64,000 nt of DNA from Pseudochrobactrum saccharolyticum (GTDB taxonomy: Bacteria; Pseudomonadota; Alphaproteobacteria; Rhizobiales; Rhizobiaceae): assembly GCF_008801715.1 (NCBI RefSeq), contig NZ_VZPG01000004.1:248001-312000 (forward strand). The letters are read 5' to 3'. Numbering within the stretch: the stretch's first letter is position 1; the number at the start of each line of letters is the position of its first letter. A program made the translations under genes and the position numbers. This document shows positions 15,559-18,446 of the stretch, in pieces. Under the pieces are notes generated by a model, which had not been told where the DNA came from, made no database searches, and saw nothing but the letters and a program-made list of their open reading frames with translations.

Positions 15559-15566
15559 TTTTTCTT

Positions 15567-15671
15567 TAGAGCGCCGTGTACCAGACTTGGCACACAAAGG
15601 TCGCTCTAACATTTTAAAATTTGAGCATAATTTTACCTTAAACTGATCCAAGTTTAAGGAATTATGCTCTA
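15567..15671. repeat. Palindromic interspersed repeat, about 105 bp
   Basis: The left half matches the unit at 10.33 kb and 47.2 kb (AGAGCGCCGTGTxCCAGACT, then TGGCACACAAAGGTCGCTCT). The right half is a long palindrome, GAGCATAATT to AATTATGCTC, with CCTTAAAC/GTTTAAGG inside. There is no coding capacity. It separates the GGDEF gene from the ilvI leader. Confidence 0.7.
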
Positions 15672-15795
15672 ATATTTTTCAATGGCTTGCGGGTCTTGTT
15701 TGTCTGTTAGATTCATGAGGGACGCAGGCTTGGTATCAAGCGGTGCTTTTCTGCCCGAACCGGCAAAGAAAATAACAAGATTACGTTTTTTGCCA

Positions 15796-15824
15796 TTGAC
15801 GTGAAAAAAACAGCTGTTTAATCT
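15796..15824 (+). promoter_or_regulatory. Promoter of the ilvI leader
   Basis: TTGACG (15796-15801) and TAATCT (15819-15824) are spaced by exactly 17 bases. The predicted RNA start, six to seven bases after the -10 box, falls on the A of the leader-peptide ATG at 15831. Confidence 0.75.
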
Positions 15825-15830
15825 CCCCTT

Positions 15831-15884
15831 ATGGCTAAGAAAATTATTCTCGTGGTGGGTAAGCGTATGGGCAGGATGGTGTAA
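15831..15884 (+). CDS. ilvI leader peptide (attenuation)
   Basis: A 17-codon frame encodes MAKKIILVVGKRMGRMV and stops at TAA. Codons 5-9 are Ile-Ile-Leu-Val-Val, the three branched-chain amino acids made by the downstream pathway. No Shine-Dalgarno sequence precedes the ATG, and the promoter places the predicted transcript start at the ATG itself, so the peptide is probably translated from a leaderless RNA, as reported for the rhizobial trpL leader. Ribosome stalling on these codons would signal shortage and let transcription proceed into ilvI-ilvH. Confidence 0.8.
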   Translation: MAKKIILVVGKRMGRMV

Positions 15885-15940
15885 CCATCCGGCGAAAGCT
15901 CCCATGCGCGAAACACAGGCTCCCTCAGGGGGCCTTTTTT
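15864..15940 (+). promoter_or_regulatory. Transcription attenuator of ilvI-ilvH
   Basis: Hairpin one has an outer stem CGTATGGG (15864-15871) with CCCATGCG (15901-15908) and an inner stem GGATGG (15874-15879) with CCATCC (15885-15890), spanning the leader stop codon. The terminator is GGCTCCC (15918-15924), loop TCA, GGGGGCC (15928-15934), then six T. AGCTCCC at 15897-15903 nearly duplicates the terminator's 5' arm. If a stalled ribosome opens hairpin one, this copy can pair with GGGGGCC and act as antiterminator. All parts of a leader-peptide attenuator are present; the folding is my inference. Confidence 0.75.
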
Positions 15941-16036
15941 ATTATCTTCACACAACGAATATAGCTAAACAGTACGGGACTTCCGGTGGATATCAGGGAG
16001 TAATCACCGGAACAGCAGACGGGACATCGAAAGACA

Positions 16037-17851
16037 ATGAGTACAGATACAAGTGGCACCACAGCCGCAGCGCAGAACGAAACCGGCAAACGGGAAATGA
16101 CCGGTGCGGAAATGGTTGTGCAGGCACTGATCGATCAGGGCGTTGAGCATATTTTCGGCTATCCGGGCGGTGCGGTACTTCCGATCTATGACGAGTTGTT
16201 TCAGCAGGAAAAAGTTGAGCATATTCTTGTGCGTCACGAGCAGGGCGCCGGCCATGCGGCTGAAGGCTATGCCCGCTCAACCGGCAGAGTCGGTGTTATG
16301 CTGGTAACCTCCGGTCCGGGTGCCACCAATGCGGTAACACCTTTGCAGGATGCGCTGATGGATTCCATTCCGCTGGTTTGCATCACCGGTCAGGTTCCGA
16401 CCAGTCTCATTGGTACAGATGCGTTTCAGGAAGCTGATACGGTCGGCATTACCCGTCCTTGCACCAAACATAACTGGCTGGTTAAGGATGTGAATGATCT
16501 GGCACGCGTTCTGCACGAGGCATTCCATGTTGCGCGTACCGGTCGTCCGGGTCCTGTTGTTATTGATATTCCGAAGAACATCCAGTTTGCCACCGGCATG
16601 TATACGCCACCGGCAACCAGCCCGCGCACCAGCTATAATCCGGTTCTGAACGGTGATCAGAGTGCTATCCGCACTGCGGTTGAACTGCTGGCCAATGCGA
16701 AGAAGCCGGTTATCTATTCCGGCGGCGGTGTTATCAATTCCGGTCTTGAAGCCTCGAAACTGCTGCGTGAACTGGTCGAAATTACCGATTTCCCGATCAC
16801 ATCGACCCTGATGGGGCTGGGTGCTTATCCGGCATCGGGCAAGAACTGGCTGGGTATGCTCGGCATGCATGGTACATTCGAAGCCAATATGACCATGCAT
16901 GAATGTGATGTTATGCTGTGTATCGGTGCGCGTTTTGATGACCGTATCACCGGTCGTCTTGATGCTTTCTCGCCGAATTCCAAGAAGATTCACATTGATA
17001 TCGACCCGTCGTCGATCAACAAGACCGTTCGCGTTGATGTGCCGATTATCGGTGATGTTGCCCATGTTCTGGAAGATATGGTGCGCCAGTACCGTGCCTC
17101 TGCCCAGCGTCCTGATAAGAAGGACATGAGCGCATGGTGGCAGCAGATCAATAAATGGCGTGCGCGCAATTCGCTGGCCTATAAGCACAGCCGCGATGTG
17201 ATTATGCCGCAATATGCTCTGGAGCGTCTGCAGGAACTGACTAAAGATCGCAAGACCTACATCACGACAGAAGTTGGCCAGCACCAGATGTGGGCTGCTC
17301 AGTTCATGAAATTCGAGGAGCCGCATCACTGGATGACTTCCGGTGGTCTGGGCACCATGGGCTATGGTCTGCCTGCGGCTCTGGGTGTGCAGATTGCTCA
17401 TCCGGATGCGCTGGTTATTGATATTGCCGGTGATGCTTCGGTACAGATGTGTATTCAGGAAATGTCAGCGGCCATTCAGCATAATGCGCCGATCAAGATT
17501 TTCATTCTGAATAACCAGTATATGGGCATGGTGCGCCAGTGGCAGCAGCTGTTGCATGGTAACCGTCTGTCGCATTCTTATACAGAAGCGATGCCGGACT
17601 TTGTTAAACTGGCTGAAGCCTATGGCGGCACAGGTATCCGTTGCTCCAAGCCGGATGAGCTGGATGATGCAATCATGAAAATGATTGAAACAGACGGTCC
17701 GGTGATTTTTGACTGTCACGTTGCCAATCTGGCGAACTGCTTCCCGATGATCCCTTCAGGCAAGGCGCATAATGAAATGCTGTTGCCGGACGAAGCGACG
17801 GATGAAGCTGTTGCCAATGCTATCGACGCCAAAGACCGTCACCTCGTCTAA
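16037..17851 (+). CDS. ilvI: Acetolactate synthase, catalytic subunit
   Basis: A 604-residue TPP-dependent enzyme. The catalytic glutamate is E68 in VRHEQGAGHAAEGYAR; a FAD-binding middle domain and the C-terminal TPP motif (GDASVQMCIQE near 465 to ILNNQY) follow. It condenses two pyruvates, or pyruvate with 2-oxobutyrate, in the first common step of valine, leucine and isoleucine synthesis. It needs the regulatory subunit encoded 22 bases downstream. Expression is likely governed by the leader-peptide attenuator about 100 bases upstream. The gene may be called ilvB in some genomes. Confidence 0.96.
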   Translation: MSTDTSGTTAAAQNETGKREMTGAEMVVQALIDQGVEHIFGYPGGAVLPIYDELFQQEKVEHILVRHEQGAGHAAEGYARSTGRVGVMLVTSGPGATNAVTPLQDALMDSIPLVCITGQVPTSLIGTDAFQEADTVGITRPCTKHNWLVKDVNDLARVLHEAFHVARTGRPGPVVIDIPKNIQFATGMYTPPATSPRTSYNPVLNGDQSAIRTAVELLANAKKPVIYSGGGVINSGLEASKLLRELVEITDFPITSTLMGLGAYPASGKNWLGMLGMHGTFEANMTMHECDVMLCIGARFDDRITGRLDAFSPNSKKIHIDIDPSSINKTVRVDVPIIGDVAHVLEDMVRQYRASAQRPDKKDMSAWWQQINKWRARNSLAYKHSRDVIMPQYALERLQELTKDRKTYITTEVGQHQMWAAQFMKFEEPHHWMTSGGLGTMGYGLPAALGVQIAHPDALVIDIAGDASVQMCIQEMSAAIQHNAPIKIFILNNQYMGMVRQWQQLLHGNRLSHSYTEAMPDFVKLAEAYGGTGIRCSKPDELDDAIMKMIETDGPVIFDCHVANLANCFPMIPSGKAHNEMLLPDEATDEAVANAIDAKDRHLV

Positions 17852-17873
17852 TACCGGAACAAGGATATTCATT

Positions 17874-18446
17874 ATGAACGCACAAAATGCAGCTTCCGGT
17901 TCAGCTTACTTTCTGACCGAAGAAACCCAGCTAGTTGAAACACATACACTATCGGTACTGGTTGATAACGAGCCGGGTGTTCTAGCCCGTGTTATCGGCC
18001 TGTTTTCCGGCCGCGGTTACAATATTGAAAGCCTGACGGTTTCTGAAACCGAGCACGAAAAGCACCTGTCGCGTATTACGATTGTGACACGCGGCACTGC
18101 CAATGTTCTGGATCAGATCCGTCACTCGCTGGAACGCATTGTTCCGGTGCACCGCGTGGTTGATCTGACCTATCATGCCCAGCAGCTTGGTCATGAGCGT
18201 CCGGTCGAGCGTGAACTGGCGCTGATCAAAGTGGTTGGCAAAGGTGATGACCGTGCAGAAATGCTGCGTCTGGCTGATGCTTTCAAAGCCAAGGTTGTGG
18301 ATGCAACGGTCGAGCATTTCATTTTTGAAATTACCGGTAAGGGCGCGAAGATCGATCAATTTATCGCGATTATGAAGCCGCTCGGTCTGATTGAGGTTTG
18401 CCGCACCGGCGTAGCTGCTATGATCCGTGGTGCAGAAGGAATGTAG
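17874..18446 (+). CDS. ilvH: Acetolactate synthase, regulatory subunit
   Basis: From ATG 17874 the protein has 190 residues with an N-terminal ACT domain (THTLSVLVDNEPGVLARVIG, about 23-42, then GYNIESLTV) and the C-terminal ALS_ss domain (RELALIKVVGK onward). It activates the catalytic subunit and confers valine feedback inhibition. The short extension before the ACT domain is normal for rhizobial IlvH. A longer frame opening inside ilvI was rejected. The ilvIH operon ends in a clear terminator. Confidence 0.95.
   Translation: MNAQNAASGSAYFLTEETQLVETHTLSVLVDNEPGVLARVIGLFSGRGYNIESLTVSETEHEKHLSRITIVTRGTANVLDQIRHSLERIVPVHRVVDLTYHAQQLGHERPVERELALIKVVGKGDDRAEMLRLADAFKAKVVDATVEHFIFEITGKGAKIDQFIAIMKPLGLIEVCRTGVAAMIRGAEGM

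Follow-up and report, generated by a model that had tools for sequence, protein, structure and literature searches.

At the locus considered here, the genes for the two subunits of acetolactate synthase, ilvI and ilvH, are preceded by a short transcribed leader, and the question it raises is how translation of this leader could be communicated to transcription of the operon. The window, meaning the whole 64,000-nt stretch of Pseudochrobactrum saccharolyticum DNA that was analysed, had been described from its letters in an earlier note, which proposed a leaderless branched-chain amino acid attenuator. The promoter and its spacer, the ATG at 15831, the 17-residue ORF with its Ile/Leu/Val (ILV) codons, the hairpin and the terminator arms of that description were all confirmed by direct reading, although a further stem, P1, had been missed (Table 1). 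We consider it likely that the element is a ribosome-mediated transcription attenuator of ilvIH with a leaderless start and with P1 under the control of the ribosome. Comparison among relatives shows the ORF, the codon run, P1, the second hairpin P2, the terminator, the synteny and the promoter geometry.

An ilvIH attenuator as such is not new, having been predicted previously. In the available part of PMC2573895, an "ilvIH cis regulatory" element of S. meliloti was tabulated in 2008 and credited to Vitreschak 2004, and a figure legend in PMC4117421 reports ilvIH attenuation in Caulobacter. The open-access literature searched yielded neither a leaderless ilvIH leader nor a description of the RNA family Atu_C8 (see below) as an ilv attenuator.

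The leader locus

Table 1. Features of the leader and its surroundings, in positions of the window
Feature	Positions	Strand	Basis and remarks
Block GCAAAGAAAATAACAAGATTACGTTTTTTGC ahead of the -35 box	15763..15793	+	Complementary ends; near-invariant within the genus
Promoter TTGACG-17-TAATCT	15796..15824	+	Direct reading: -35 TTGACG 15796-15801, spacer 17 nt, -10 TAATCT 15819-15824; predicted to start the transcript at the A of ATG 15831
Leader ORF, 17 aa, MAKKIILVVGKRMGRMV	15831..15884	+	Predicted leaderless; stop codon 15882-15884
Control codons ATT ATT CTC GTG GTG (Ile Ile Leu Val Val)	15843..15857	+
Stem P1, 5' arm GCGTATGGG	15863..15871	+	Covariation; starts 5 nt past the last control codon
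Hairpin P2 over the stop codon	15874..15890	+	Arms 15874-15880 / 15884-15890; folding and covariation
Stem P1, 3' arm CCCATGCGC	15901..15909	+	Covariation
Intrinsic terminator with T run	15917..15940	+	Arms 15917-15924 / 15928-15935; T run 15935-15940
ilvI, acetolactate synthase large subunit	16037..17851	+	Three TPP enzyme domains
ORF with ilvH, acetolactate synthase small subunit	17772..18446	+	ALS_ss_C and ACT_AHAS_ss domains; true ilvH start probably downstream of 17772

Six bases (CCCCTT) separate the -10 box from the ATG. This box is a weak match to the -10 consensus, and a strict sigma-70 scan returned no site. The 130-nt leader folds more stably than its shuffles (z -3.5), and a terminator between the leader ORF and ilvI is also visible in aligned relatives. 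Among six genomes of the genus, that of the window included (a seventh had no usable leader), all 112 of 112 leader columns are identical, as are 39 of 40 in the promoter (-40 to 0) and 31 of 40 between -80 and -40, where the block with complementary ends lies; further upstream, from -280 to -80, identity falls to 46 of 208 columns. The block is possibly a binding site for a regulatory protein.

Upstream of the ilvIH promoter, at 15562-15674, the window also carries a repeat of about 110 bp with inverted parts. It occurs in at least 40 places of the genome, a count for which 40 of 71 candidates were scored; 16 of the 56 matches listed are reverse half-matches. Pseudochrobactrum plasmid records contain it at 93-94% identity, and by eye it is absent upstream of ilvIH in five relatives of the genus.

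Family membership and gene neighbourhood

Positions 15830-15950 match the Rfam family RF02502, "Rhizobiales sRNA Atu_C8", over the whole model (1-122 of 122) with an E value of 3e-21 and 102.1 bits against a gathering threshold of 50, so that the element is a full-length member, present once in its genome. At E<=1e-3 the family was found in 138 of 249 genomes surveyed within the order (its own included) and in none of 14 control genomes. These amount to 144 matches, six genomes having two, of which 112 were examined: ilvI lies directly downstream in 109, and the remaining three precede a gene for an MFS transporter. Where Rfam has a small RNA gene, the comparison of sequences and gene order identifies Atu_C8 as the ilvIH leader, which has an ILV upstream ORF and a terminator. 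In the text available from PMC5913331, RF02502 is named merely as an entry in a list of test families.

The leaders were collected in a set of 133, with 111 from the order-wide search and 22 from nearer relatives, after one locus of the former (L044) and one of the 23 relatives' loci (L119) had been dropped for want of a leader start. The set takes in three leaders located before MFS genes (L011, L012 and L032) and five identical leaders of the same genus, and a few of its start calls, those of L086 and L093 and other GTG ones, are uncertain. The longest run of Ile, Leu or Val codons comprises 3-6 codons in 132 of the 133, in peptides of 13-20 residues which vary beyond this run from family to family. 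The locus has one of the traits of a ribosome-mediated branched-chain attenuator, in that regulatory codons are clustered in a small ORF ahead of a gene of branched-chain biosynthesis. Outside the order, RF02502 was found in 6 of 289 genomes of the class and our own model R1, which lacks P2 because MAFFT aligned this stem poorly, in 5 of 387 (own genome included), counts of little weight since just 10-11 candidates were scored per genome under strict filters.

A very unlikely alternative is that the element is a trans-acting small RNA, or a small protein gene, merely located before ilvI. Such a role would agree with the Rfam type "Gene; sRNA" and with the available accounts of S. meliloti, where rnTrpL and peTrpL work in trans (PMC7298713, PMC10117765), but it would leave unexplained the presence of ilvI in 109 of 112 cases and the retention of ILV codons and terminator, and apart from the ILV run each family has a different peptide. 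The Rfam label fits a terminated leader equally well. The further idea of the earlier note, that the released peptide or leader RNA could also act in trans, gained no support here.

Two further arrangements were seen. A tandem pair of ilvI genes 2.7 kb apart, each with a family leader led by a Shine-Dalgarno (SD) site, occurs at L048 and L083 (genomes G236 and G202), and in genome G021 a leader of the MFS type, MKIAMVLAVVIGRMGRMV, stands ahead of a diverged paralogue of ilvI that shares 70% identity with the window's copy (L031).

Conserved stems and terminator

The structure was compared in an alignment of 81 leaders out of 109 non-redundant references. P1 is paired in 96.8% of cells and shows two-sided changes at seven of its nine pairs, and none of 500 shuffles matched the full structure in covariation score. 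In 114 of the 133 leaders P1 starts exactly 5 nt past the end of the codon run, and a shift of one codon accounts for 11 of the 19 that depart from this distance. P2 and the terminator covary as well, less cleanly owing to length variation and alignment, and the pairing of P2 in 64% and 53% of cells is lowered by its poor MAFFT alignment and variable length. Synteny, the ILV run, the covarying stem and the terminator together uphold the view that a branched-chain attenuator precedes ilvIH. The comparative alignment of leaders that the earlier note had called for bore it out on the retained ILV run and the covarying stems, while its antiterminator from a duplicated arm stayed at the level of shuffles (see below).

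ILV leader peptide, terminator and biosynthetic operon are shared by the window with other proteobacterial attenuators (E. coli leu, ilvB and ilvG; the predicted alphaproteobacterial ilvIH elements; Caulobacter ilvIH). This clade differs from them in being apparently leaderless, in having no detectable overlapping antiterminator, and in a P1 at a fixed distance from the control codons.

Putative leaderless and Shine-Dalgarno initiation

The position of the promoter relative to the start codon is bimodal among the 133 leaders. TTGAC lies at -35 to -38 in 50 (the near class) and at -53 to -70 in 56 (the far class); it never occurs at -39 to -52, and 27 leaders have it in neither range. Stray copies are found at -30 in L134 and at -21 in L050, which has another at -68. 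The two groups of leaders also differ in their initiation signals, with SD pairing weaker than -4 kcal/mol in 45 of 50 near-class leaders against 25 of 83 others (Fisher p 5e-12) and an ATG start in 50 of 50 against 63 of 83 (p 3e-5), although these p-values ignore kinship and the counts are not independent across related genomes. The five near-class leaders that do have SD pairing include three of the window's own family (L115, L129 and L111). When only independent pairs on well-supported branches were taken, three were left, a number with which significance is out of reach, and sign tests gave a median p of 0.25 for SD and 1 for AUG; over 200 pairings the SD difference went in the expected direction in 2.5 of 3 pairs on average, whereas start codons did so in 0.6 of 3, since in most cases they did not differ. 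The IlvI tree used was a quick one with many weak branches (130 rows, 101 with a promoter state), and on this weakly supported tree parsimony asks for at least six switches between near and far promoters. Promoter bimodality, SD sites and start codons suggest that one attenuator exists in leaderless and SD-led forms, and two genomes (G115 and G235) hold both modes, with an SD site at the ilvI leader and a near-class leader before the MFS gene.

The window leader has an ATG start and no SD-like pairing upstream of it (+0.4 kcal/mol), as the earlier note had said, which is the configuration of a leaderless mRNA. The leaderless transcripts of S. meliloti all start with AUG, according to the portion of PMC3616915 consulted, and an AUG-only near class is what would be expected if the AUG were the 5' end. 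The leaderless start proposed for this locus is therefore supported by promoter position, the lack of an SD site and the AUG-only near class. An upstream promoter giving a longer 5' end seems improbable to us; the weak -10 box TAATCT would allow for it, and 59 of 171 leaderless transcripts of S. meliloti have further starts (same available portion of PMC3616915), but little is conserved beyond about -80 in the genus (the 46 of 208 columns above) and the bimodal promoter positions speak against it.

Leaderless attenuators have been described before. In the accessible parts of PMC7298713 and PMC10117765, the attenuator RNA of S. meliloti trpL begins at the AUG of its leader ORF, a likeness to the start predicted here, although trpL senses Trp. 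The window's own genome has a trpL leader ahead of trpE, MTNFTFASLIWWWARF (L166), with weak SD pairing (-2.1 kcal/mol), which may be leaderless, but in its genus relatives L164, L165 and L168 trpL is preceded by an SD-like match (-6.6).

Search for an antiterminator

The earlier note had proposed that the duplicated 5' arm of the terminator, AGCTCCC at 15897-15903 and GGCTCCC at 15918-15924, supplies an antiterminator partner for GGGGGCC. The comparison did not support this. The pairing is possible in 40.2% of cells against 40.3% in shuffles, with no gain over slid versions, and AGCTCCC paired with GGGGGCC would form a hairpin before the same T run. The CCC of AGCTCCC belongs to the 3' arm of P1.

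A more general search was made by folding the transcript just short of the 3' arm of the terminator with the part covered by the ribosome masked, the mask reaching 12 nt beyond the A-site codon in folds of early and late states and 9 nt in the position profile and in the E. coli and trpL tests. A measure from full-length equilibrium folds was discarded because the terminator persisted in all states, those of the E. coli controls included. With the masked folds, the terminator 5' arms of E. coli trp, thr and leu are trapped upstream when the ribosome is at the control codons (0.62, about 0.59 and 0.46) and free when it is at the stop codon (0.00). For alphaproteobacterial trpL leaders, 19 trpE loci gave 14 fold measures. 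In seven of these the terminator arm is 6 nt or longer, and all seven show the same fall, which is moderate in two; the other seven have mixed values, their arms having been miscalled at 2-4 nt. This antiterminator behaviour of their relatives' trpL is not shared by the ilvI leaders. In 127 distinct ilvI-type leaders the mean upstream pairing rises from 0.07 to 0.18 over the two codons that precede the last ILV codon, then to 0.41 at that codon and 0.47 at the stop, and the terminator 5' arm of the window follows the same profile (0.01, 0.05, 0.31 and 0.30). The ribosome at the stop codon thus frees no terminator arm, the reverse of what the three E. coli controls show; the arm has little upstream pairing as long as P1 is able to form and gains more when a ribosome covers the base of this stem.

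Two other approaches agreed. A covariation scan gave isolated weak column pairs only, and no helix joining the terminator arms to upstream columns. Native tails pair upstream less (0.46) than tails swapped between species (0.54), which gives no sign of a selected antiterminator. Covariation, early and late masked folds, tail swaps and position profile therefore found no overlapping antiterminator, an absence that rests on computed folds and covariation and is not proof. A classical overlapping antiterminator, be it AGCTCCC with GGGGGCC or a weak family-specific equivalent, has in our view a small probability. The window and some of its near relatives do have the CUCCC repeat, and the terminator 5' arm finds weak species-specific partners once P1 is covered; against this stand the shuffle-level pairing in 81 leaders, the lack of a covarying helix and the position of the proposed pairing itself before the T run. 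With no antiterminator found, P1 is the only element clearly under the control of the ribosome.

A model for control by the ribosome

In the attenuator we favour, the first transcribed base would be the A of the leader AUG, where, as we assume from the promoter geometry, a 70S ribosome would initiate without an SD site. While it translates Ile-Ile-Leu-Val-Val, its position would decide whether P1 forms. When amino acids are ample, the ribosome would pass and leave, P1 and P2 would form and the terminator would halt transcription, leaving a short leader RNA, the Atu_C8 of Rfam. A stall at the last Val codons would cover the base of P1 and keep its 3' strand free, and this free strand, again by assumption, would delay the terminator so that ilvIH is read. 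The direction of this response, like leaderless translation, is inferred, and the action of P1 on the terminator above all. P1 would then be an anti-antiterminator, a role favoured by its likeness to the first hairpin of the C. glutamicum ilvBNC attenuator, which the available text of PMC11857589 describes as an anti-antiterminator and discusses as leaderless. Both are branched-chain attenuators with a first hairpin and a putative leaderless start; the C. glutamicum system belongs to another phylum, operon and sequence, and the antiterminator described there was not found here. Since P1 stays free when the ribosome stalls at the earlier Ile and Leu codons, the model accounts for a response to Val more readily than for one to the other two amino acids.

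The roles could also be reversed, with P1 as the starvation structure. A stall on the first ILV codons would allow both P1 and P2, a ribosome that has reached the stop codon would prevent them, and P1, a few nucleotides before the terminator, would lower termination without sharing bases with it, by a steric or polymerase-directed effect. This is rather unlikely in our judgement, though P1 is indeed free at control-codon stalls before the last one and is covered at the last ILV codon and onward as far as the stop, and an overlapping antiterminator was not found. On the other hand, no physical route is known by which an adjacent, non-overlapping hairpin could block this terminator, and constant read-through would be predicted without translation.

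Copies before a transporter gene

Paralogues of the leader lie directly before an MFS_1 gene of the Bcr/CflA type in four genomes (G115, G235, G169 and G364) and in 12 of 17 plasmid records matching the window leader; of the other five records, two were checked and have ilvI downstream, and the remaining three are from Sinorhizobium. S. meliloti strain Ak57 has the leader ahead of ilvI. The records with the transporter come from Rhizobium and Phyllobacterium, and in one the gene is annotated "Bcr/CflA subfamily drug resistance transporter protein". In most of the loci (L011, L012, L032, L149 and L188-L199) the leader lies at about position 1500-1700, with peptides such as MKIAMVLVVVIGRMGRMV, and model R1 matches it in 12 of 12 plasmid records. 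TTGAC stands at -36 to -38 in 14 of 16 of these leaders (10 from plasmids and four from genomes), which are apparently leaderless, L197 and L198 being two loci of the 16 without a called leader start. Among 30 loci of MFS homologues, R1 gave a single weak match (23 bits), and an Rfam scan of 20 of them gave none; this near-absence indicates that the link between leader and transporter is confined to a subset. No attenuator before Bcr/CflA genes was found in the open-access literature searched.

Implications

A catalogued "sRNA", RF02502, can be reread as an amino-acid attenuator. Its relatives make up a natural set in which one switch is used with two modes of translation start, and may serve as a probe for the effects of leaderless initiation on the coupling of ribosome and polymerase. 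Tentatively, and with the chances rather against it, they could form a non-classical family in which the ribosome controls a P1 that contains no terminator bases, which switched several times between leaderless and SD-led forms and which was copied before a Bcr/CflA-type exporter. Through the copies before MFS transporters, the state of amino-acid supply or of translation is linked to an export gene, a link that can be tested: if this is true, branched-chain starvation or slowed translation would turn on the transporter together with biosynthesis.
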